Shown piece after piece: positions 6,132-22,602 of a stretch of DNA of 22,602 nucleotides. The notes under the pieces are model-generated. The model did no database searches. It was not told the DNA's origin and worked only from the letters and a program-made list of their open reading frames with translations. Every line of letters begins with the position of its first letter. Positions within the stretch are counted from its first letter, which is position 1. The DNA lies in assembly GCF_000718775.1 (NCBI RefSeq), contig NZ_JOCB01000122.1, positions 1 through 22,602 on the forward strand, read 5' to 3'. The translations under genes were made by a program, and so were the position numbers. The DNA comes from Streptomyces sp. NRRL S-31. GTDB lineage: Bacteria > Actinomycetota > Actinomycetes > Streptomycetales > Streptomycetaceae.

Positions 6132-8948
6132 TCAGGGCGAGACCACTTTCACCTCGGCCTGCGGGAACAGGGAGGCGTAGGGAAAGTCGGACGGCCTGCG
6201 ATCGCGCCGCAGACCCAGCAGCACCGACCGCAGTCCCGGCATCCGCGCCGCGAGGGCGCGGAGGTCCTCGACGCTGCCGGTCCCGAACACCCGAAGCCTT
6301 GTGACGTGCGGCAGTTCAGGCAGGTCCGCGAGGACGTCCGCGCCGCTCAGGTACAGGTCGAGCGAGCGCAGACTCGTCCAGTGCTCCAGCCCGCGCAGCC
6401 CCGTGGGATCGCCGCCGCAGTCCAACACCAGCCGGTTCAGCGGGAGTGCGGACAGGTGGTGCAGGCCCGTCGCGGCCGGACACTCGATCAGCTCCAGCTC
6501 GCGCAGCGAGGTGAGCGCCGACAGGGCCGCCAGATCGGTGAGCGCCGGGTTCCGCCGCAGCCTGAGTTCCGTCACCGTGCCGGGGTCCGGCAGGGCGGCC
6601 AGGATGTCCTCACCGGTGTGCGCGCCCGAGAGCTGGAGGTGCTGCCAGGGCCGCATCCGGGCCAGTGCCTCGAGCTCCTCCGCGTCCCGGCAGGCCAGCA
6701 CCAGGTCCGTCCGGTCCAGATGGTCCAGCACCTCGGCCGCGTACGTCCTGGTGTCGAAGCGCCCCCAGGTGCCCACGAGCTGCCGCCGCACCCGCAGATC
6801 GGGGTGCTCCCGGAAGCGCCGCAGCACGGCCAGCGCTCCCTCCGGCTCCTCGTCCGCGAGGAGCGAGGCGGTGACCGCCACCGCGTGCGCCGTCTCGGGC
6901 GTCAGCCCCTCGGGCCCAGGCAGCAGTTCCAGCACCAGCGGTCCCGCCTCCGCCAGGGCCCGGGCGCCCTCCGTCGAACGCGGGGGGACCAGGCTGGCCG
7001 CCCGTGACTCGACCGCCGCCCGCACCGCCGGATCGAGCGCCGTCGCGTGCTCCAGGCAGGCCAGCGCCAGCAGGGTGAGCCGAGGGGTGTCACGGTCCAG
7101 CAACTGCCGTAGCAGCGCCGCCCGTTCCCGGGGCCGGGCGTGCGCCACCGCCATCCGCACGACGTCCTCCCACTGGGTGTCGTCGGCGTGGCTGACCAGG
7201 ACGTCCAGATGGCCCTCCGCGACGGCGTACCGGGCGCCCAGGTAGTCCTGGAAGGTGCGGTGCACGAAGTCCACGACGCCCTCGGCCGGCCGGCGCAGCA
7301 GTCCGCTGCGCAGGAGCAGTGACCGGAGGACGGTCGCGGCGTCACCCTGCCCCGCCGCCGGACCGACCGCCGGCAGGCACCGCTCCACGATCCCCTCGGC
7401 CGTGTCGGCGTCCATCTCCGTCCGCCCGCTCAGCACCAGCGCGTACGCCAGCCGCTGCAACAGCTCCAGCTGGGCCTCCTCACCCGGCTCGGCGCCCATC
7501 CCGCGCTCCCGGTCCCGCCGGGCCAGCAACATCGTCAGGGCGGCGTCGTACAGCTCCTTGCGGCCGGTGGGGAGGTAGCCGCGGCGGTCCCGGTGCAGGG
7601 CGCAGATCAGACCGCACATCAGGGGGTTGGTGGCCAGCCTGGCCAGGTCGCGCTTGGTGCGCAGGGAGTCCAGGAGGGGGCCCTCGTACTCGGGTGCCCG
7701 CGCGGCCGCGTGCCAGCGGTGGACGAAGGTCGCCACCTCCGGGCGGCGCATCGGGGCCAGGGTCAGTTCCCGGAACCCCTCCTCGGCCAGCCAGTCGGGG
7801 CGTACGGCGGTCGGGCGGGAGGTCAGGAGCCAGTCGTTGCCCGGGTAGGCGGTGAGCAGGGAGCGCAGCCAGTCACGGGTGCGGTTGCGGTCGGCGGCCG
7901 GTATCTCGTCCAGGCCGTCCACCAGGACCAGGCCCCGCCCGGCCGTCAGCACGCGGTCGGCCCAGCCCTCCGGCGGGGTCAGCGGGCAGCTCACCGCCTT
8001 CAGGAAGTCGGCCGGGGCGGGGAGCGGGCCGGTGCGGATCAGGGTGCGCAGGGGGAGGACGCAGGGGACGCGGTGGCCGTCGCGGGCGGCGGTGACCGCC
8101 AGCCACTGCACCAGCGTCGTCTTGCCGGAGCCGGCGTCGCCGCGCAGCAGCACGCGGGAACCGGCGGCGAGCGCCTCCTCGGCGGGCATCCTGCCCGGGG
8201 TGAGCGGCGGATGCTCGCCGCCGCCCCGCGCGGTGTCCTCCGCCTCGGCCGCCTCCAGGCTCAGATAGGCGACTTCGAGGGGCCAGCGGTCGGGGGAGTC
8301 GCGCAGGTCGATGCCATAGATGGTGATGTGGTTGTGGTGGTCGGCGACGTAGGGCAGGTAGCGGCGCTCGAAGGCGAGGTCCAGTGCGTCCGGGCGGGGG
8401 ATGCGGGCGATCAGCTCGTCGGTCTTCGCGATCAGTTCCCGCTGGGCCCTGACCTGCTCCACCAGGGTCCGGGCCACGAAGGTGGAGCGGCGGGTGAAGA
8501 ACTCCAGGATGTGCAGGCAGGCCCACTGGGTCGCCGAGTCCAGGAAGGCGGTGGCGTCGGCGGACAGGCCGTCCGGGGGCGGGGCGTGACGGTGGAGCAG
8601 TCGTGCCAGGTCCCGGCTGCCGAGCCGTACGGCCTGTACGTCGTCCATGTCCAGGTCGCCGAGGGCGAGCAGCCGGCCGGTCAGCGCGTCGGTGACGGCC
8701 GTCTCCTCGTCGGGCGGGAAGGGACGTTCGCCCGGGGAGGCCACGGCCCGCGCCACCAGGCGGCCGGCGAGGACGCGCACCTCCTTCTCGCCCAGGGTCC
8801 GCTTCTCGCCCCTGAACGACACCAGTGCCGACAGCCGCACCGGTCCGTCGACCAGTCCCGCGCCCGGTCCGTCCTGCGCGAACAGCTTCTTCACCAGCGG
8901 ACCGATCAAGCCGGAGGCCAGCTTGCCACCCAGTACGGCCGGTTCCAT
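6132..8948 (-). CDS. NACHT-domain STAND NTPase with C-terminal leucine-rich repeats (bacterial NLR-like)
   Basis: This 938-residue protein has three parts. The N-terminal helical region (1 to about 240; starts MEPAVLGGKLASGLIGPLVKK) resembles the NACHT N-terminal helical domains of streptomycete NACHT proteins. The NACHT NTPase has Walker A GDAGSGKTT (270-278), Walker B VLVDGLDEIP (341-350) and LLTSRP (374-379), followed by winged-helix and helical superhelix regions with FVHRTFQDYLGARY. The leucine-rich repeats run from about 765 to 915 (LTELRLRRN-, LTSLRELEL-, LRSLDLY-type units). Bacterial NACHT proteins of this layout are signal-dependent switches, and several are antiphage sensors resembling eukaryotic NLRs. 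No nuclease, TIR or protease effector domain is recognisable. ATG 8948 is preceded by a G-rich GGGGGGGTGG ribosome site. The gene is monocistronic, with no defence neighbours in the window. The defence role is an inference from the family. Confidence 0.9.
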   Translation of the reverse strand: MEPAVLGGKLASGLIGPLVKKLFAQDGPGAGLVDGPVRLSALVSFRGEKRTLGEKEVRVLAGRLVARAVASPGERPFPPDEETAVTDALTGRLLALGDLDMDDVQAVRLGSRDLARLLHRHAPPPDGLSADATAFLDSATQWACLHILEFFTRRSTFVARTLVEQVRAQRELIAKTDELIARIPRPDALDLAFERRYLPYVADHHNHITIYGIDLRDSPDRWPLEVAYLSLEAAEAEDTARGGGEHPPLTPGRMPAEEALAAGSRVLLRGDAGSGKTTLVQWLAVTAARDGHRVPCVLPLRTLIRTGPLPAPADFLKAVSCPLTPPEGWADRVLTAGRGLVLVDGLDEIPAADRNRTRDWLRSLLTAYPGNDWLLTSRPTAVRPDWLAEEGFRELTLAPMRRPEVATFVHRWHAAARAPEYEGPLLDSLRTKRDLARLATNPLMCGLICALHRDRRGYLPTGRKELYDAALTMLLARRDRERGMGAEPGEEAQLELLQRLAYALVLSGRTEMDADTAEGIVERCLPAVGPAAGQGDAATVLRSLLLRSGLLRRPAEGVVDFVHRTFQDYLGARYAVAEGHLDVLVSHADDTQWEDVVRMAVAHARPRERAALLRQLLDRDTPRLTLLALACLEHATALDPAVRAAVESRAASLVPPRSTEGARALAEAGPLVLELLPGPEGLTPETAHAVAVTASLLADEEPEGALAVLRRFREHPDLRVRRQLVGTWGRFDTRTYAAEVLDHLDRTDLVLACRDAEELEALARMRPWQHLQLSGAHTGEDILAALPDPGTVTELRLRRNPALTDLAALSALTSLRELELIECPAATGLHHLSALPLNRLVLDCGGDPTGLRGLEHWTSLRSLDLYLSGADVLADLPELPHVTRLRVFGTGSVEDLRALAARMPGLRSVLLGLRRDRRPSDFPYASLFPQAEVKVVSP

Positions 8949-12412: not shown

Positions 12413-13765
12413 CTAGCCGCTCCCGGACACGGGCAGCATCGGGTAGCTGCCCGTGTTGGTCGGTGCGTGCTCCGGCAGCCACAGGACGGCCACCGCGCCC
12501 TCCGCGGGAACGTGGGCGGGCGCGCCCGCGGGCCGTACGTTGCGGAAGGTGAGCCGGGCACCGAGCACCCGCGCCTGGCCGGCCGCGATGGTCAGCCCCA
12601 GCCCATGGCCCTGCCCGGACCGGTCCATGCTGCCGGTGCGGAACCGGCTCGGCCCCTCGGCCAGCAGCTCCTCGGGGAAGCCGGGGCCGTGGTCGCGGAC
12701 CCGGATGACCCGGCCCTCCACGGTGACCTCGATCGGCGGCCGGCCGTGCCGCGCGGCATTGGCGAGCAGGTTGAACAGCACCCGCTCCAGCCGCCGCGGA
12801 TCGGTGGTGACCTCCGACTCGTGCACCACCCGTACGGTGATCCCCGGGTCCTTGGCCGCCACCCGGCGCGAGACGAACTCGCCCAGCAGGAGGTCCTGGA
12901 GTTCCGCCCGCTCCGAGGCACTGTCCAGCCGGGCCACCTCCAGCACGTCCTCGACCAGCGTGCGCATCGCCTTCGCCCGGTCCAGCACCAGTTCCGTGGG
13001 CCGGCCGGGCGGCAGCAGCTCGGCGGCCGTCAGCAGACCGGTCACCGGGGTGCGCAGCTCGTGCGCGATGTCGGCGGTGACCCGCCGCTCGGCCTCCAGA
13101 CGCTGGCGCAGCGCGTCCGCCATGGCGTCCACCGCCCGCGCCAGATCGTCGGTCTCGTCCCGTACGACGCCGCCGATGGCCGCCCGCACCCGGACGTCGG
13201 TCTCGCCCTTGGCGACCTGGTTCGCGGCGGCCGCCGCCTTGCGCAGCCGGCGGGAGAGCTGGCCGCCGATCAGCACGCCCAGCGCGCTGCCGCCGAGCAC
13301 GACCGCGACCGAACCGATGACCAGGGCCTGGTCCAGGTCCTTCATCATGTCGGTGCTGCGGTCCGGCATGTGGAGGTGCACGGACAGCACGTGCCCGTCC
13401 TTCACCGGTACGGCCGCCCAGATGTCGGGGATGCCACCGCGCTGGGAGACGTCACTGGCCCGGCGGCCCCGCTCGACGCTTGCGCGCAGCGCGGCCGGCA
13501 GGTGCGGGTCGTCGACCTTGACGTACGGGAACACCGGTCCCCGGTTCAGCTCGTAGTTGCGCTGGGCCAGCAGCAGGCGGTCGTTGGCCAGTTCGCGCGC
13601 GTTGTCCAGCATCGAGACGCGGGCCGCGTTGTGCACGACCAGGCTCAGCGCGATCGCCACCAGACCGGCCACCAGCGCGATGGCCGCGCTCAGCTTCCAC
13701 CGGAGCCCGGTGCGCAGGCCCGCGTCCTCCACCCGGCGGACCGGATGCCGAAGAATCCCCCGCAT
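12413..13765 (-). CDS. cseC: CseC sensor histidine kinase of the SigE envelope-stress system
   Basis: The 450-residue kinase has TM1 at about 23-45, an extracytoplasmic sensor loop at 46-146, TM2 at about 147-168 and a HAMP linker at about 169-220. The H-box is VTADIAHELRTPV with phospho-acceptor H235. The catalytic domain has N-box NLLANAARHG, G1 DHGPGFP, F-box FRTGS and G2 GHGLGLT. In S. coelicolor, CseC senses damage to the cell envelope, for example from wall-targeting antibiotics, and phosphorylates CseB, which turns on sigE. ATG 13765 lies 13 bases after the cseB stop, so the two genes are co-transcribed. The last 20 residues (after LWLPEHAP) are a short low-complexity extension. Identity is supported by the complete sigE-cseA-cseB-cseC order. 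Confidence 0.95.
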   Translation of the reverse strand: MRGILRHPVRRVEDAGLRTGLRWKLSAAIALVAGLVAIALSLVVHNAARVSMLDNARELANDRLLLAQRNYELNRGPVFPYVKVDDPHLPAALRASVERGRRASDVSQRGGIPDIWAAVPVKDGHVLSVHLHMPDRSTDMMKDLDQALVIGSVAVVLGGSALGVLIGGQLSRRLRKAAAAANQVAKGETDVRVRAAIGGVVRDETDDLARAVDAMADALRQRLEAERRVTADIAHELRTPVTGLLTAAELLPPGRPTELVLDRAKAMRTLVEDVLEVARLDSASERAELQDLLLGEFVSRRVAAKDPGITVRVVHESEVTTDPRRLERVLFNLLANAARHGRPPIEVTVEGRVIRVRDHGPGFPEELLAEGPSRFRTGSMDRSGQGHGLGLTIAAGQARVLGARLTFRNVRPAGAPAHVPAEGAVAVLWLPEHAPTNTGSYPMLPVSGSG

Positions 13766-13778
13766 ACCGTCGCCCCGC

Positions 13779-14480
13779 TCAGGCCTTCAGCTTGTAGCCG
13801 AAGCCGCGGACCGTCTCGATCCGGTCCTGGCCGATCTTCTGCCGCAGCCGCTGCACATGCACGTCGACGACCCGCGTGTCCCCGCCCCAGCCGTAGTCCC
13901 ACACGCGCTCCAGCAGCTTGTCGCGGGAGAGCACGGAGCCCGGCGCCGAGGAGAACTCCAGCAGCAGCCGCATCTCGGTCGGGGTCAGCGCCACCGGCTG
14001 CCCGGACCGGCGCACCTCCATGCCGTCGGTGTCGATCTCCAGCTCCCCGAAGGTGAGCGTGCCGGCGACCGCGGCCGTGGACTCCTCCGCCTGCGCGGTC
14101 CCGCCGGCGTGCCCGAACCGGCGCAGCACCGCGCGGATCCGGGCGACCAGCACGGCACCGTCGAACGGCTTGGTCACGTAGTCGTCGGCGCCCGCCTCCA
14201 GACCGAGGACGACGTCGATGGAGTCGGCGCGCGCGGACAGCATGATCACCGGCACGGTCGACTCGTCCCGGATCCGCCGGCACAGGCTGACCCCGTCCAG
14301 GCCCGGCACCATGACGTCCAGCAGGGCGATGTCGGGCCGGTTCGCCCGGAACGCCGCCAGGCCCGACAGGCCGTCGGGCATCGCGGTGACCGCGAAGCCG
14401 TCCCGCTCCAGGGCGAGCTGGGTGGCTTCGCGGATGACGTCGTCGTCCTCGACGAACAGGACGTGGGTCTGGTCTGCCAT
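13779..14480 (-). CDS. cseB: CseB OmpR-family response regulator
   Basis: The 233-residue protein has a receiver domain with the acidic pocket E11/D12/D13, phospho-acceptor D55 (ALLDVMVPG), S82 (IMLSAR) and K104 (VTKPF). A winged-helix OmpR/PhoB DNA-binding domain follows from about residue 140 (LTPTEMRLLLEF, then VVDVHVQRLRQKI and TVRGFGYKL). It receives phosphate from CseC and activates the sigE promoter. ATG 14480 is 37 bases after the cseA stop; the ribosome site is weak. Ala/Glu-rich residues at about 122-138 form the linker. All catalytic residues are present. Confidence 0.97.
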   Translation of the reverse strand: MADQTHVLFVEDDDVIREATQLALERDGFAVTAMPDGLSGLAAFRANRPDIALLDVMVPGLDGVSLCRRIRDESTVPVIMLSARADSIDVVLGLEAGADDYVTKPFDGAVLVARIRAVLRRFGHAGGTAQAEESTAAVAGTLTFGELEIDTDGMEVRRSGQPVALTPTEMRLLLEFSSAPGSVLSRDKLLERVWDYGWGGDTRVVDVHVQRLRQKIGQDRIETVRGFGYKLKA

Positions 14481-14517
14481 CCCGGTGCTCTCAGTCCTCG
14501 TGTGTGCGTGTGGGGGA

Positions 14518-15171
14518 TCAGTTCTCCGGCACGGGCCGCGGGCTCGGGCCGACGGACTTGCTGTACTCGTTGCGGGTGGGTTTCCCCGGGACGAATCGTC
14601 CCGCCCGCCAGGTGTAGGGCGTCACGATGTCACCGGACGGGCTGGAGATCGGGTCGTCCTGCTCGTAGTACTGCCTGGTCACCGACAGGGTGCCTTGGTC
14701 GATCTCCGCGTAGACCGGGGACTCCTCGGTCTTGAAGACGTTCTTGAACACACCGCCGTCGTCCCGGTACACGTACGAGCCGATACCCACCCAGTCCGCG
14801 CAGGTCATCACGTTGATGACGACGTCGTCCACCGGGGCGTCGGTGAGATCGGCGTACGACACGTCGACCTGGTAGTTGTCGCCGTCGCACGGCTTCAGCT
14901 CGCGTTTGACCGCCCCCGACACGGCGGGGTCGCCCTTCAGCAGCGCCACGGCGTCGACCCGGCGGTACTTGCCGACGACGCTGGGCGACGGGGAGGCGCC
15001 GGCCGCCGCCACCGCCGAGGCGTGCGCCGGTCCCTCGTCCCGGGCGCCGGTGCCCCCGCTGCCGCACGCGGCGACGAAAAGGAGGAGGGCGGCGAGCGCG
15101 GCCCCCACCGCGATCACCGCCTGTGAACTGCTACGGGCCTGTTCGGGCCCGGCCCCGGTCAGGCCGCGCAA
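14518..15171 (-). CDS. cseA: CseA lipoprotein, negative modulator of the SigE system
   Basis: The 217-residue protein has a lipoprotein signal peptide: hydrophobic stretch VIAVGAALAALLLFVAAC with lipobox V-A-A-C and lipidated C36, then a Gly/Ser/Ala-rich spacer. The remainder is a soluble extracytoplasmic domain (ADLTDAPVDDVVINVMTCADW, GIGSYVYRDDGGVFKNVF) with no enzyme motif. In S. coelicolor, CseA is a lipoprotein whose loss raises sigE expression, so it probably damps CseC signalling. The likely start is TTG 15171, inside sigE by 13 bases, with GAGGAG upstream. A GTG at 15117 is an alternative but would remove the basic n-region. The overlap implies translational coupling to sigE. Confidence 0.9.
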   Translation of the reverse strand: MRGLTGAGPEQARSSSQAVIAVGAALAALLLFVAACGSGGTGARDEGPAHASAVAAAGASPSPSVVGKYRRVDAVALLKGDPAVSGAVKRELKPCDGDNYQVDVSYADLTDAPVDDVVINVMTCADWVGIGSYVYRDDGGVFKNVFKTEESPVYAEIDQGTLSVTRQYYEQDDPISSPSGDIVTPYTWRAGRFVPGKPTRNEYSKSVGPSPRPVPEN

Positions 15172-15698
15172 CGCTCCCGCTCCTCACGCTCCAGCGCGCG
15201 TGCGTCCAGATCGCGGGCCTCCAGCTCCTCCCGGAGCCGGGCGAGCGCCCGGTGCAGCGTGCTCTTGACCGTTCCCGCCGACATGCCGAGGGCGGCGGCC
15301 GTCTCCTCTGTGGACATCTGCTCCCAGTGTCGCAGCACCACGACACTGCGCTGCTTCGGTGCGAGCACCTTCATGACGTCCATCAGCAGGGCCCGGTCGG
15401 CGTGCTGCTCGGTGGAGTCGTCCACGGAGGCGTCCGGCAGCTGCTCGGTGGGCACCTCCTCCAGCTTGCGCGCCCGCCACCACTCGGTCCGCGTGTTGAT
15501 CATGACCCGGCGCAGATAGGCGTCGGCGAGGCGCTTGTCGGCGATGCCCTCCCAGCGGCCGTACGTCCGCACCAGCGCGGTCTGGAGCAGGTCCTGGGCG
15601 TCGACCGGGTCCGGGACCAGCCGGCGGGCGCTGCGCAGCAGCGCGTCCTGCCGGGTGCGGACGTACTCCTCGAATTCGAGCACCTCGCCCTGCGCCAT
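15159..15698 (-). CDS. sigE: SigE ECF sigma factor (envelope stress)
   Basis: The 179-residue ECF sigma factor has region 2 at about 8-78 (FEEYVRTRQDALLRSARRLV, DAQDLLQTALVRTYGRW, AYLRRVMINTRTEWWRARK) and region 4 at about 105-158 (LAPKQRSVVVLRHWEQMSTEETAAALGMSAGTVKSTLHRALARL). The C-terminus is highly charged (EREERER). In Streptomyces, SigE directs genes that maintain the cell envelope. It is controlled by transcription through CseB/CseC rather than by a cognate anti-sigma factor, and none is seen beside it. ATG 15698 has a good GGAGG ribosome site; the frame is open to 15779, but that extension looks non-coding. It is the first gene of the operon. Confidence 0.97.
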   Translation of the reverse strand: MAQGEVLEFEEYVRTRQDALLRSARRLVPDPVDAQDLLQTALVRTYGRWEGIADKRLADAYLRRVMINTRTEWWRARKLEEVPTEQLPDASVDDSTEQHADRALLMDVMKVLAPKQRSVVVLRHWEQMSTEETAAALGMSAGTVKSTLHRALARLREELEARDLDARALEREERERCAA

Positions 15699-15787
15699 GA
15701 TCAACCGCCTCCGTTCCCCGTCGCTTCCGGCTCGTGCCCGAAGTCCCGCCGTCCCCACGCCCGGTGGTCCGCCGGGCACGGGGAAGA

Positions 15788-17020: not shown

Positions 17021-17026
17021 TTGCGC

Positions 17027-17878
17027 GTGGGATCTCTGCGCAATCCGATCGGGCCGCTTCCCTCCACCATCTACTGGCGCCGGAGGGTCGTACTGCTGTC
17101 CCTGCTCGCCGTGTTGGCGCTGGTGATCACGTGGATCGTCACCGCCGGCGGCGGGGGCGGCAAGAAGAGCGCGAACGGGTCCGACGGCAAGAACCCCACG
17201 CACACCATCACCCCGGGACCGACCCCGTCCGGTTCCGCGATCAGCCAACACCCGGGCGGGCGCGACGAGTCGGGCGGCGGGGGCTCCGGTGACGGCGGCT
17301 CCGGCTCCGGCTCGGGCGGGGACGGTGGTTCGGCGGAGTCGGGCGCGGACTCCGGCGGGACCTCCGGGGCCTTGGGGTCTCCCGGTTCCGGTGACGGTCC
17401 GGGCGGTGGTTCGGGCGCCGGTTCCGGTGGTGCCGCCGTCGCCGCGGGCGACGCGCTCCCGGCGTCCTCCACACTGCCCGAGTGCACGTCGGCCGCGGTG
17501 GCGTTGAGCCTGCGCAGCCTGCACAACTCCTACTCGCCGGACCAGACGCTGACGTTCCAACTCATCGCCCGGAACCGCTCGTCGGCCGACTGCAAGGTCG
17601 ATCTCGGGCCGAAGAACGCGGTGTTGACGATCACTCCGGCCGACGGTGACGACGCGTACTGGTCGTCGGCCGACTGCCCCAAGGGCGCGGGAAGCCTGGA
17701 CTTCCGGGTGCCGGCCGGTCAGAGCATCACGTACACCGTGAAGTGGGACCGCAAGCCGAGCGCGGCCCACTGCGAGACCCCGCCCGCCGGCTCGGCCAAG
17801 GCGGGCACGTACCTGCTGGAGGCCAAGACGCCGGGGTACGGCAAGACGCAGGCGTCGTTCGTCCTGTCCGCGGACTAG
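17027..17878 (+). CDS. membrane-anchored, Gly/Ser-rich extracytoplasmic protein
   Basis: The 283-residue protein has a short basic N-terminus ending RRR, one membrane helix at about 21-40 (VVLLSLLAVLALVITWIVTA) and then a Gly/Ser/Asp-rich linker of about 100 residues. The C-terminal domain of about 135 residues is predicted to be beta-rich: CTSAAVALSLRSLHNSYSPDQTLTF, NAVLTITPADGDDAYW, VPAGQSITYTVKWDRKPS, GTYLLEA. It has four cysteines, suggesting two disulphides outside the cell. The strand pattern recalls Ig-like or DUF4232-type surface domains, but no enzyme motif is visible. The start is GTG 17027, with TAGAGT six bases upstream, so the message is probably leaderless. It is divergent from mutY and convergent with disA. 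No function is known to me. Confidence 0.85.
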   Translation: MGSLRNPIGPLPSTIYWRRRVVLLSLLAVLALVITWIVTAGGGGGKKSANGSDGKNPTHTITPGPTPSGSAISQHPGGRDESGGGGSGDGGSGSGSGGDGGSAESGADSGGTSGALGSPGSGDGPGGGSGAGSGGAAVAAGDALPASSTLPECTSAAVALSLRSLHNSYSPDQTLTFQLIARNRSSADCKVDLGPKNAVLTITPADGDDAYWSSADCPKGAGSLDFRVPAGQSITYTVKWDRKPSAAHCETPPAGSAKAGTYLLEAKTPGYGKTQASFVLSAD

Positions 17879-18111: not shown

Positions 18112-19236
18112 TCAGACGTACCGCTCCAGGATGGAGGACTCGGCCAGCCGCGACAGGCCCTCCCGCACGCTGCGCGCCCGGGCCTCGCCCACGCCGTCCA
18201 CGGCCTGGAGATCGTCCACGCTCGCGGCCAGCAGCTTCTGCAAGCCGCCGAAGTGCTCCACCAGCCGGTCGATGATCGCGCCCGGCAGCCGCGGGACCTT
18301 CGCCAGCAGACGGAAGCCGCGCGGCGACACCGCCGAGTCCAGCGTCTCGGGAGACCCGGTGTAGCCCAGCGCACGCGCCACCGTGCCCATTTCGAGCAGC
18401 TCCGCGTGGGTCAGCGCGTCCAGCTCGGCCAGCGCCTCCTCGACCGTGCGCGAACGCTTCGCCGTCGGCTCGGGCACGTAGTCCCGGACGACCAGCTCAC
18501 GGTCGGGCTCCACCCCGGCGATCAGCTCCTCCAGCTGGAGGGCGAGCAGCCGGCCGTCCGTGCCCAGCTCGACCACGTACTCGGCGATCTCGGTGGCGAT
18601 GCGGCGCACCATCTCCAGCCGCTGCGCGACGGCCGAGACGTCCCGGACCGTCACCAGGTCCTCGATCTCCAGCGCCGACAGCGTGCCCGCGACCTCGTCC
18701 AGCCGCAGCTTGTACCGCTCCAGGGTCGCCAGCGCCTGGTTCGCCCGGGAGAGGATCGCCGCCGAGTCCTCCAGGACGCGCCGCTGGCCGTCCACGTAGA
18801 GGGCGATCAGGCGCATCGACTGGGAGACCGAGACGACCGGGAAGCCGACCTGCTTGCTCACCCGGTCCGCCGTGCGGTGCCGGGTGCCCGTCTCCTCGGT
18901 GGGGATCGTCGGGTCCGGGACCAGCTGGACGCCCGCGCGCAGGATCTTCGACAGGTCCGACGAGAGCACGATGCCGCCGTCCAGCTTGCACAGCTCCCGC
19001 AGCCGGGTGGCGGCGAACTCCACGTCCAGCACGAAACCACCCGTGCACATCGCCTCGACCGTCTTGTCCGAGCCGAGGACGATCAGCCCGCCGGTGTTGC
19101 CGCGCAGGACCCGCTCCAGGCCGTCGCGTAGCGGCGTGCCCGGTGCCACGGCGCTCAGCGAGGCGCGCATCAGGCGATCGGAACCGGCACTCCCACCGGA
19201 CTTTCCGGGAGCTGCTGCCCGGTCGTTGGCTGCCAC
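18112..19236 (-). CDS. disA: DisA diadenylate cyclase and DNA-integrity scanning protein
   Basis: The 374-residue protein converts two ATP to cyclic di-AMP. The DAC domain spans about residues 20-155, with the DGA-type motif seen here as D86-G87-G88 ([11 protein letters not shown]) and the RHR motif R119-H120-R121 (ETGTRHRTA). A helical spine runs from about 160 to 305, and a C-terminal RuvA-like helix-hairpin-helix DNA-binding domain from about 315 to 374 ([40 protein letters not shown]). GTG 19236 is chosen because GGAGGAG lies just upstream and the family begins near AANDR; the frame is open to 19281. It is 80 bases downstream of radA on the same strand. In other bacteria RadA binds DisA and limits cyclase activity, so the pairing is functional. 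Confidence 0.97.
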
Positions 19237-19316
19237 TGCACTCCTCCGGTCGCAGGTTCTGACGCGCTCCCGTTCCCGCACTCGGTTCGTACGGACGGGC
19301 GAGACCTGGGCAAAGT

Positions 19317-20726
19317 CTACCGGCGCTCTTCCGCCTCCCGTGGGGCCTCTCGGCGACGGGAGCGGGGCAGAACGCGCAGCGCGTCCCCCATGTCGGCGAC
19401 TTCCAGGACCTTCATGCCGGGCGGCACCTTCCCCGGATCGGTCGGCACGAGCGCGTGCGTGAAGCCCAGCCGGTGCGCCTCGGAGAGCCTGCGCTGCACA
19501 CCGGTCACCCGTCTGACCTCGCCCGCGAGTCCCACCTCGCCGATCGCCACCAGGTTCTTCGGCAGCGGGGTGTCACTGGCGGCGGAGGCGAGGGCGAGCG
19601 CGATGGCGAGGTCGGCGGCCGGCTCCGACAGCTTCACGCCGCCGACCGTCGCGGAGTAGATGTCCCGCTTGCCGAGCGCGCTGATCCGGCCGCGCTGCTC
19701 CAGCACGGCCAGCATCATCGACACGCGGGAGGTCTCCAGACCGGACGTCGTGCGGCGCGGGGAGGGGATCTGCGAGTCGACGGTGAGCGCCTGCACCTCG
19801 GCCACCAGCGGGCGGCGGCCCTCCAGGGTGACGGTCAGACAGGTGCCCGGCACCGGCTCCGCGCGCCGGGTCAGGAACAGGCCGCTGGGGTCGGCGAGGC
19901 CCGTGATGCCCTCGTCGTGCAGCTCGAAGCAGCCGACCTCGTCCGTCGCCCCGTACCGGTTCTTCACGCCCCGCACCAGGCGCAGCCGGGCGTGCCGGTC
20001 GCCCTCGAAGTGCAGGACGACGTCCACCAGGTGTTCCAGCAGGCGCGGTCCGGCGATGGCGCCGTCCTTGGTGACGTGGCCCACCAGCAGCGTGGACATG
20101 CCGCGTTCCTTGGAGGCGCGGATCAGGGCGCCGGCGACCTCCCGGACCTGGGCCATGCCACCGGGCGCGCCGTCGATCTCGGGCGAGGCGACCGTCTGCA
20201 CCGAGTCGAGGATCAGCAGGGACGGCTTGACCTGGTCCAGGTGCCCGAGGACGGCGGCCAGGTCGGTCTCGGCGGCCAGGTACAGATGGTCGTCGAGCGC
20301 GCGGATGCGGTCGGCGCGCAGCCGCACCTGGCTCGCCGACTCCTCGCCGGTGACGTAGAGCGTGGGGTGCTCGGCGCTGGCGGACTTGGCGGCCACGTCC
20401 AGCAGCAGGGTGGACTTGCCGACGCCCGGCTCGCCGGCGAGCAGGACGACCGCGCCCGGCACGAGGCCGCCGCCGAGCACCCGGTCCAGCTCGGGCACGC
20501 CGGTGGAGCGGGCGGTGGCCTGCCGGCCGTCGACCTGGCCGATGGGCAGCGCGGAGCTGGTCACCCGGCCCGGCGCCGTGGTCCGCACCGCGGGCGCGCC
20601 GTACTCCTCGACCGTGCCCCACGCCTGGCACTCGGGGCAGCGGCCGAGCCACTTGGCCGTCTGCCAGCCGCACTCGGTGCAGCGGTAGGACGGGCGGTCC
20701 TTGGTGGTCTTGGTACGGGCAGCCAT
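19317..20726 (-). CDS. radA: RadA (Sms) DNA repair ATPase / branch-migration helicase
   Basis: The 469-residue protein begins with a zinc finger, C16-x2-C19 and C30-x2-C33 ([17 protein letters not shown]). The RecA-like ATPase has Walker [10 protein letters not shown] (98-106) and Walker B LLILD (170-174). The RadA-specific motif is KNRYG (255-259), a Tyr variant of KNRFG. A Lon-protease-like C-terminal domain (from about 300) serves as scaffold and is not proteolytic. RadA helps process recombination intermediates with RecA. I chose ATG 20726 because the zinc finger follows directly; the frame is open to 20879 but that part is Pro/Arg-rich. TACGGT lies six bases upstream (complement of 20733-20738), so the transcript may be leaderless. 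disA follows 80 bases downstream. Confidence 0.97.
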
Positions 20727-20838
20727 GCGGAAACCGTAGCCCGCGGCACTGACAACGGGACCGCGGGCCGGGGGCGCGGGCCCGGGACGCGCCCGCGGGC
20801 GAGCCCCTTCCGGCCACCACCCGCCGGGATACAGCCGC

Positions 20839-20853
20839 GGAACAAAGGGTTCC
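20839..20853. repeat. short inverted repeat in the radA/sigma-like-gene divergent region
   Basis: GGAAC-N5-GTTCC lies at 20839-20853, roughly midway between the radA start and the divergent gene. It could be an operator, but the arms are only five bases. Confidence 0.25.
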
Positions 20854-20931
20854 TGTCCCCTTATGAGGGATCGTTTCACCCGTACGGATTAAAAGTGCTC
20901 AAGGTTCCGGAAGGGGCACTCCACCGCCGCC

Positions 20932-20937
20932 TACGGT
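20932..20937 (+). promoter_or_regulatory. -10 hexamer TACGGT for the sigma-like/BACON gene
   Basis: TACGGT ends seven bases before an in-frame GTG (20945) that abuts ATG 20948, so transcription probably starts at or near the start codon. No ribosome site is seen within the usual distance. The same hexamer precedes radA at a similar distance on the other strand. Confidence 0.45.
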
Positions 20938-20947
20938 CGCACGGGTG

Positions 20948-22602
20948 ATGAGCAGCAGTCCGGAGACGACCACCCGTACGACCGGCGCGCACCGGGCGCA
21001 CCGCGCTGCGCGCGAAGCACGAGGCGAGGAACGGGGCGGGGTACGAGGCGAAGCGCGGGGCGAGGCGCGAGAGGCGAGGGAGGCGAGTGAGGCGAGTGAG
21101 GCGCGGGACCGCAACGCCGCGCGCGCCCTCGCCCGGCGCACGCCGGCGCGCTACGAGCCGTATCTGGACGGCCTGTTCACCTACTGTCTGTCGGTCCTGT
21201 GCGACCACGACGAGGCCACCGCCGTCCTCGGTGACGTCCTCGCCCTGGCCGAGCGGCGCGGCCACCGGGCTCCCGAGGCCCCCGGCGACCGCAGGGCCTG
21301 GCTGTACGCGCTGGCCCGCTGGGCGTGCCTGCGCAAGCTGGCCGCAGCCAAGCAGAAACGTCAGGCCACGCACGCGGCGGGCCGCACCGGGGCCCGGCCG
21401 TCGACGGCGCCGGCGCCGGGGCCGGGCGGAGGCGCCCCGGACCCGTCCCGCGACCCGGAGTCCGAGGAGCGGCGCCGGGAACTCGCCCTGCTGGCCTGGC
21501 CGGAGGCGGCCGGGACCACCCCCGAGCAGCGCGAGGCACTGGAACTCGCCGTGCGCCACCACCTCGCCGCCCACGAGGTCGCCGCCGTCCTCGGCAGGGA
21601 GCCCGCCGCCACCCGCGAGCTGCTCGCATCCGCCGCCTGCGAGGTCGAGCGCACCAGCGCGGCCCTCGCCGTGGTCCGGGCCGGCGGCTGCCCGAGCGTG
21701 GCGCACCTCACCGGCGACAGCCGGCTGGTCCTCGGCACGGCCCTGCGGCGCGAGCTGGTCCGGCACGTCGACGACTGTCCGCGCTGCCGCCGCACCGCCG
21801 AGCGCGCCGTCTCCGGCAACTGGCCCGGCGCCACGGTCACCCCCGCCGAGCTGCCCGTCCTCCAGGCCCCGCGCGCGGCCCTCGGCACCGCCCTGGCGCA
21901 CCACCCGCGCGCGCGGGGCGCGGCCGTACCCCGCTTCGACCGGCGCGGCTTCCCGGTGGACCCCAAGGACCGCGCGGCCCGCCGCGAGCGGCTGCGCGCG
22001 CGTGCCGTCACGACGACCGTGGTCGCCACGGTCGTCGCCGCTCCGGTCCTCGCCCTCTGGGCCGCCTACCGGGGCGGACCGGCCGGGGACGACGGCCCCT
22101 CCGCGACCGCGCGCGAGACACAGGGCCCCGGCCTGCTCGGCGGCGGCCCGGCCGGCGACTACCGGAACGCGGGGAACGTCAGCGCGAAGCCGGGCCCCCG
22201 GACCGGCGGGGACGGCACGGCGGACGTCTCCGTGGAGGTGGTCAGCGTCGGCGGAGCGGACCGGAAGGGCGCGGGGCGGCTGGCCGTCGACGCCGCCAAC
22301 GACGGCGACACCACCCTGATCACCCTCACGGCCTCCGGCGCGTCCGAGGTCCGCTGGTCGGTGTCCACACCGGCCGCCTGGCTCTACTTCAGCCGGTCCA
22401 CCGGAACCCTCGGCCCCGGCCGGACGGTGACCGTCAAGGTGTACGTCGACCATCTGCGCGAGCCGTCCGGCCACTGGCGGGCGCGGGTGGCGGTGGCCCC
22501 GGCGGGCGCGGTGGTCACCATCGACGGCTACGGCGCGGCGCCGAGCCGCCCGACGCACCGCCCCCCGTCGGCCGGCCCCACCACCCCGGCCCCGCCCAGC
22601 AC
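20948..22602 (+). CDS. sigma-factor-like / ZAS anti-sigma / membrane / BACON-like fusion protein, truncated at window end
   Basis: An open frame of at least 551 codons runs off the right edge. After a Glu/Ala/Arg low-complexity N-terminus (about 20-55) comes a sigma region 2-like segment (about 65-135: RYEPYLDGLFTYCLSVL, DHDEATAVLGDVLALAE, RAWLYALARWACLRKL). A region 4-like segment follows (about 176-240: PEQREALELAVRHHLAAHEVAAVLGREPAATRELL). An HX3CX2C zinc anti-sigma motif, H273-x3-C277-x2-C280, comes next, then one membrane helix (354-374) preceded by Arg residues. An outside Ig-like region resembling a BACON domain (about 425-528: VRWSVSTPAAWLYFSRSTGTLGPG) leads into a Pro/Thr-rich tail. 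Known ECF systems use separate sigma and anti-sigma proteins; here the parts share one chain. In-frame GTG 20945 is an equally possible start. Whether the sigma-like regions bind RNA polymerase is unknown. Confidence 0.8.
   Translation, partial: MSSSPETTTRTTGAHRAHRAAREARGEERGGVRGEARGEAREAREASEASEARDRNAARALARRTPARYEPYLDGLFTYCLSVLCDHDEATAVLGDVLALAERRGHRAPEAPGDRRAWLYALARWACLRKLAAAKQKRQATHAAGRTGARPSTAPAPGPGGGAPDPSRDPESEERRRELALLAWPEAAGTTPEQREALELAVRHHLAAHEVAAVLGREPAATRELLASAACEVERTSAALAVVRAGGCPSVAHLTGDSRLVLGTALRRELVRHVDDCPRCRRTAERAVSGNWPGATVTPAELPVLQAPRAALGTALAHHPRARGAAVPRFDRRGFPVDPKDRAARRERLRARAVTTTVVATVVAAPVLALWAAYRGGPAGDDGPSATARETQGPGLLGGGPAGDYRNAGNVSAKPGPRTGGDGTADVSVEVVSVGGADRKGAGRLAVDAANDGDTTLITLTASGASEVRWSVSTPAAWLYFSRSTGTLGPGRTVTVKVYVDHLREPSGHWRARVAVAPAGAVVTIDGYGAAPSRPTHRPPSAGPTTPAPPS
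21046..21114 (+). repeat. GAGGCG-rich tandem coding repeat
   Basis: This stretch is built from GAGGCG-containing units of 9 and 12 bases, including two adjacent GAGGCGAGT copies. It encodes alternating Glu-Ala with Arg or Ser (GEAREAREASEASEAR). It gives the sigma-like fusion protein a charged, probably helical or disordered N-terminal arm and may vary in length between strains. Confidence 0.7.

Follow-up and report, generated by a model that had tools for sequence, protein, structure and literature searches.

The window, the whole 22,602-nucleotide stretch analyzed here, is contig C122 (positions 1-22602; NZ_JOCB01000122.1) of Streptomyces sp. NRRL S-31. At its 3' end lies a gene that joins helices resembling those of extracytoplasmic function (ECF) sigma factors, a zinc anti-sigma (ZAS)-like domain, a transmembrane (TM) helix and a BACON-like domain in a single protein. 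The open reading frame (ORF; 20945-22600, + strand) stays open to the end of the contig, and alignment with full-length relatives, including P0001 (598 aa, 97% identical to the window protein), indicated that only the Pro/Thr-rich tail is lost beyond it. A profile search of the genome retrieved a single copy of the gene. Its parts and its divergent neighbor are as follows, with residues counted from the GTG.

20945..22602, + strand: fused gene (putative pseudo-sigma/ZAS/TM/BACON), starting at GTG 20945 or ATG 20948; 3' end missing at the contig end
21143..21364, + strand: sigma region 2-like helices, residues 67-140; canonical region 2.2 Asp replaced
21455..21673, + strand: sigma region 4-like helices, residues 171-243
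21605..21649, + strand: region 4.2 recognition-helix window, residues 221-235; net charge ≤0 in 111/111
21683..21814, + strand: zinc anti-sigma-like domain, residues 247-290; presumed ligands C249, H274, C278 and C281
21932..21955, + strand: motif RFDRRGFP next to the membrane, residues 330-337; 111/111 have G335 and P337
22004..22072, + strand: the one transmembrane helix, residues 354-376, hardly varying within the genus; 111/111 have P367 and W372
22223..22543, + strand: BACON/Ig-like outer domain, residues 427-533
22544..22602, + strand: start of the Pro/Thr-rich C-terminal tail, which runs beyond the contig (alignment with full-length relatives)
19317..20726, − strand: radA, the divergent neighbor (TIGR00416, 500 bits)

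The fused ORF is a real gene, because it is matched in 99 of the 101 genomes of the window's family, radA is divergent from it in 109/111 loci, and the four presumed zinc ligands are kept in 111/111. The matches (E≤0.001) covered 17/17 genera of the family, which was taken as Streptomycetaceae. Of the two genomes without a match, G075 lacked a convincing radA as well, and G036 carried a 3' remnant beside the radA start. The 111 loci include the window itself and leave out L150-L165, which are duplicates of earlier genomes; L002-L008, which match over short stretches of DNA, and L113, represented by 100 bases, were likewise not used. Of these loci, 80 were the best matches of one scan. A tandem copy puts radA one gene away at L100, and radA was not seen within 6 kb of locus DNA at L041. 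An artefactual frame on the other strand was considered and rejected: homologs and domains back the + strand, and the antisense frame mirrors the GC content at third codon positions (GC3). At L207 (G001:C77:32500-37200), a more diverged tandem second family copy lies between the gene and radA. Outside the 111, the HX3CX2C motif described below was present in this second copy and in L205, and was not seen in L206, which contains runs of N.

The ZAS-like part is defined by an exact HX3CX2C motif at residues 274-281, equivalent to 273-280 from the ATG, where the initial annotation had placed it. The motif occurs in 111/111 family ORFs, and zinc binding is presumed from it; C249, H274, C278 and C281 are also invariant in an alignment of 42 rows, distant relatives among them. 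The spacing between C249 and the motif (25) is one that we take to resemble RsrA. The zf-HC2 profile scored 10.8 bits on the window protein, under its cut-off of 22.2, and matched 35 of 47 family members (E≤1), while the fold-search matches spanned positions 6-207 of the model and hardly covered this part. A single hydrophobic peak followed at residues 352-377, in agreement with the one TM segment (354-374) read previously. Positive charges lie on the N-terminal side of this helix, so the head is predicted to be inside and the C-terminus outside. Beyond it, the BACON-like domain claimed in the initial annotation was recovered by the Pfam profile BACON_2 at residues 449-505 (28.7 bits; cut-off, 25) and in 46/47 family members (E≤1). 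In the predicted models, the outer part superposes on an Ig-like domain of GH115, and the fold search also suggested MSP, PapD and ASH folds. Carbohydrate or mucin binding, which the initial annotation linked to BACON domains, would be a putative property of this one.

The N-terminal head resembles a sigma factor weakly by profile and also by predicted fold. NCBIfam sigma models matched residues 48-236 with a best E of 4.6e-6 and residues 75-217 with 9.3e-6, although none came near its curated cut-off, and Sigma70_r4_2 matched 25/47 family members (E≤1; best 3.3e-7). In AlphaFold models, both sigma regions superpose on ECF sigma factors in a predicted two-domain helical sigma fold, whose compact form resembles that of some anti-sigma-bound ECFs; Foldseek alone returned no match for the head model at E≤0.001. 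These results bear out the region 2- and region 4-like helices that had been read from the sequence at the outset. The initial annotation had made its reading depend on such sigma similarity and on conservation of HX3CX2C, and both were found, the latter in 111/111. Of the four Pfam profiles that it had proposed to run, only BACON_2 exceeded its cut-off in the window protein; zf-HC2 stayed below, and neither Sigma70_r2 (PF04542; none at E≤10) nor Sigma70_r4 matched. Sigma70_r2 was also absent from the 25 of 29 Pfam families shown for the 47 members, so that at most one member could match. A Sigma70_r4_2 search of the own genome, in which 150 of 297 candidates were scored, returned 85 matches, none of them the fused gene.

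Residues typical of working ECFs are changed in the family. The region 2.2 Asp was present in 15/15 compared ECFs, 6/6 ECF52-like proteins and 9/14 distant relatives, and in 1 of 22 family members (3 Streptomyces loci and 19 further family loci, used for both the residue counts and the tree). The comparison ECFs were hand-picked from the 30 loci of the own-genome search; one of them, L128, has a doubtful N-terminal frame and was kept in the 15-ECF residue counts, but left out of the tree and of the ECF52-like residue comparison. The net charge of the recognition-helix window ranged from +2 to +5 in 15/15 ECFs and from +2 to +3 in 6/6 ECF52-like proteins, compared with −2 in 96, −1 in 6, −3 in 4, 0 in 3 and −4 in 2 of the 111 family sequences. 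Two features are expected of a functional ECF: a Sigma70_r2 match, which the window protein lacks and at most one of the 47 members could have, and a match to Sigma70 region 4 together with a basic recognition helix, which no family member has. The degenerate sigma factor, offered initially as one of two alternatives, thus gains support from the Asp (1/22) and from the helix charge (≤0 in 111/111); its suggested role as a decoy or scaffold would be speculative, as would proteolytic release under the other alternative.

The sigma/ZAS/TM fusion layout itself is already known, and the degenerate head is the unusual part. The available text of PMC8999054 describes ECF48, ECF52 and ECF53 as sigma-zinc finger-TM fusions for which proteolytic activation is expected, and sister proteins of the family are already named sigma-70 family sigma factors; the 'undescribed system' of the initial annotation was therefore too strong. 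In the actinobacterial ECF52 protein SCO4117, a sigma domain, zinc finger, TM helix, Pro-rich part and outer domain are combined in one protein (PMC5826349, part of the text). The fused family shares this one-protein layout, and HX3CX2C was found in 6/6 ECF52-like loci (L192-L197, whose ECF52 label rests on architecture, NPCBM and zinc motif, as in the available text of PMC5826349). However, the ECF52 outer domain is NPCBM, placed after the Pro-rich part, whereas the fused family has BACON_2; likewise, the region 2.2 Asp and the positive charge of the recognition helix are retained in the ECF52-like proteins, while the fused family has a degenerate head and radA as its neighbor. In a tree of 14 ECFs, 14 distant relatives, 22 family members and the 6 ECF52-like proteins, the family and the distant relatives formed one clade (support, 100), and L192-L197 formed a separate branch (support, 100). 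ECF52 identity was accordingly rejected, given the separate branches, the lack of NPCBM and the loss of the region 2.2 Asp and the positive helix. NPCBM was not found in the fused protein, and the sole match found in the genome lies on contig C71. That match is a piece at the contig edge (G000:C71:94-507), probably from the strain's own ECF52 (SCO4117-like) gene split between contigs. ECF53 and ECF48, compared by description only, are actinobacterial fusions with a zinc finger (likely a ZAS) and one or two TM helices in the available part of PMC8999054, and the fused family or its sister clade might be a member of either group.

Class-wide, 75/197 genomes matched at E≤1e-5, but many of the weak hits, judged by their length and extent, seem to be ordinary ECF sigma factors. 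All 14 strong matches (L166-L179) combine the sigma part with HX3CX2C and with a hydrophobic segment. These distant actinomycete proteins, such as P0121 of Phytoactinopolyspora mesophila (L168), share the sigma2-sigma4-ZAS-TM order and the clade of the family; they differ in retaining the region 2.2 Asp in 9/14, and radA was absent within 1.5 kb in 14/14 loci. A G[FWY]P motif corresponding to the juxtamembrane one occurs in 9/14 of them and in 0/6 ECF52-like proteins. Among the ten scanned with Pfam, eight exceeded the Sigma70_r2 cut-off (L168, 53.4 bits) and three had BACON_2; L174, L176, L178 and L179 were left out of this run, and three of these four resemble L177, one of the two under the Sigma70_r2 cut-off. 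Relatives of L168 that share its layout and match Sigma70_r2 well are called "sigma-70 family sigma factor" in public records, as are some close Streptomyces relatives (e.g., P0054 and P0058). The region 2.2 and 4.2 sequences of L174 and L177-L179 are changed too; given these four, sigma function may have been lost earlier, or more than once.

These comparisons bear on a rather unlikely but substantial alternative, in which the protein would be a working sigma factor tethered to the membrane, akin to ECF52/ECF53 but recognizing promoters in an unusual way; its sigma head would be released when an outside signal triggers proteolysis and the ZAS is degraded. The layout shared with ECF48, ECF52 and ECF53, and the proteolytic activation expected for them, speak for it, as do the Sigma70_r2 matches of the sister proteins and the altered expression of many genes upon deletion of SCO4117 (PMC5826349, available text). 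Two further observations weigh against a loss of sigma function. Gln in region 2.2 and Asn in region 2.4 each occur in 0/22 family members, but also in 0/6 ECF52-like proteins, and their loss says little about lost function because the ECF52-like proteins equally lack both; in addition, the acidic residue following the region 2.2 Gln position is kept in 104/111. On the other side stand the replacement of the region 2.2 Asp in 21/22 and the recognition helix that, unlike that of ECF52-like proteins, is not positive in any of the 111, together with the absence of the window protein from the Sigma70_r2 and own-genome Sigma70_r4_2 matches.

Purifying selection acts on the sigma-like head. The ratio of nonsynonymous to synonymous substitution rates (dN/dS) in Streptomyces was 0.21 for sigma2, 0.17 for sigma4, 0.26 for the ZAS, 0.04 for the TM helix, 0.73 for the linker and 0.39 for the outer domain, as obtained from 3101 of 4186 pairs of 92 sequences, which are not independent of each other. 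It is thus very improbable that the head is a decaying remnant in a protein whose function resides in the outer domain and the membrane anchor alone: the sigma signature residues are indeed lost, but the sigma-like parts evolve more slowly than the outer domain, and the zinc ligands are invariant. Since the TM value of 0.04 contrasts with 0.80 for the helix of a neighboring single-pass protein (17021-17878; one control, 1141 of 2775 pairs), the TM sequence suggests that it is read by something specific, which could be a protease, a partner or the helix itself. Such a frozen helix with an invariant Pro would also suit a protease substrate, as the tethered sigma factor would require.

The invariant ZAS ligands and the selection on the pseudo-sigma part would also fit a trans-acting anti-sigma factor, whose ZAS inhibits another ECF while the built-in pseudo-sigma acts as a competing plug that sets ZAS availability. 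A cell-envelope ECF system, SigE-CseBC, is encoded within the same window. We nevertheless regard this as improbable: in the window, the fused gene has no cognate sigma gene beside it, its conserved neighbor being radA, and the available part of PMC8999054 describes CseBC as regulating SigE through transcription.

We consider about evenly balanced the reading that the protein is a single-pass Streptomycetaceae membrane receptor with a PhyR-like pseudo-sigma head, descended from a fused actinomycete ECF. It is supported by the architecture, conservation, changed sigma residues, purifying selection and compact predicted fold. PhyR combines a correct ECF structure with degenerate promoter- and core-binding regions (PMC8103513, part of the text), and the fused protein is similar in its apparently degenerate sigma-like domain, judged by residues, and in its weak profile and fold similarity. 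While PhyR is an alphaproteobacterial response regulator with a receiver (REC) domain that binds NepR, the fused protein belongs to the membrane and carries a ZAS of its own, and no receiver domain was among the four Pfam families listed for it at E≤10. A literature search on pseudo-sigma factors and sigma mimics gave mostly general sigma-factor papers among the matches listed.

For such a receptor, the ancestor would have been an actinomycete ECF sigma factor already fused to a ZAS, a TM helix and an Ig-like domain on the outside. In this lineage, residues of the sigma head that bind core RNA polymerase and promoters would have been lost, whereas its fold and the ZAS clamp would have been retained. 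A ligand or other signal at the cell wall may be sensed by the BACON-like domain together with its linker, and the sequence-specific membrane helix would relay it by way of a partner or of a protease acting within the membrane. Next, the ZAS would loosen, and the freed pseudo-sigma head could bind or release a protein partner, for example the anti-sigma factor of a real ECF, instead of starting transcription. A more far-reaching version, which we put forward tentatively and hold to be less probable, is a core and so far uncharacterized receptor class: a membrane-bound sigma mimic in which an outside signal, passing through the nearly frozen TM helix, would open the zinc clamp so that the mimic titrates an anti-sigma factor and switches a whole ECF pathway.

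The surroundings of the gene include the following further features.

18112-19281: disA, after radA (DisA model, 527 bits)
20864..20887, + strand: conserved non-coding element TGAGGGATCGTTTCACCCGTACGG, 24 bases, 5' of the fused gene
20932..20937, + strand: TACGGT, candidate −10, seven bases 5' of the GTG; conserved box CCTACGGTC

The 24-base element was near-invariant in 22 aligned Streptomyces upstream regions (out of 92), and no second copy was found elsewhere in the genome at ≤3 mismatches. It lies in a block of strong non-coding conservation (20855-20944; GTCCCCT..TGAGGGATCGTTTCACCCGTACGGATTAAA), which the same 22 regions show together with the CCTACGGTC box ahead of the start codon. The element may serve the fused gene, because it is also kept at L041, where radA was not seen upstream. 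From the position of TACGGT, a leaderless transcript of the fused gene is possible. An Rfam search of 20600-21100 gave no match. Elsewhere in the window, a SigE-family sigma gene with cseB and cseC, a cell-envelope stress system, occupies 12413-15779 (− strand; CseB, 386 bits; CseC, 766 bits; NCBIfam), approximately 5 kb away from the fused gene. A 938-aa protein at 6132-8948 (− strand) showed a weak match to the NACHT antiphage protein EruA (48 bits versus a cut-off of 1000), and the gene at 17021-17878 (+ strand) encodes a single-pass membrane protein with a Gly/Ser-rich linker, a fast-evolving TM helix and no NCBIfam match.

In S. coelicolor, SCO3351 is called RadA (PMC3897704, available text), and the counterpart of the fused gene is therefore probably SCO3350 or SCO3349. 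We found no paper naming either gene in a literature search on SCO3348-SCO3353 (supplements and other locus tags outside the search), and a word search of the S. lividans sigma-gene paper did not find them. The fused gene is present beside radA-disA in nearly all family genomes sampled (99/101), yet SCO3349 and SCO3350 are unnamed in the literature searched. If the head is a pseudo-sigma factor, actinomycetes would have a counterpart of PhyR that is bound to the membrane, the protein would exemplify how a fused sigma/anti-sigma pair becomes a receptor, and the label "sigma-70 family sigma factor" would be wrong for some members. The sister group, with its better-preserved sigma part, provides a natural control.
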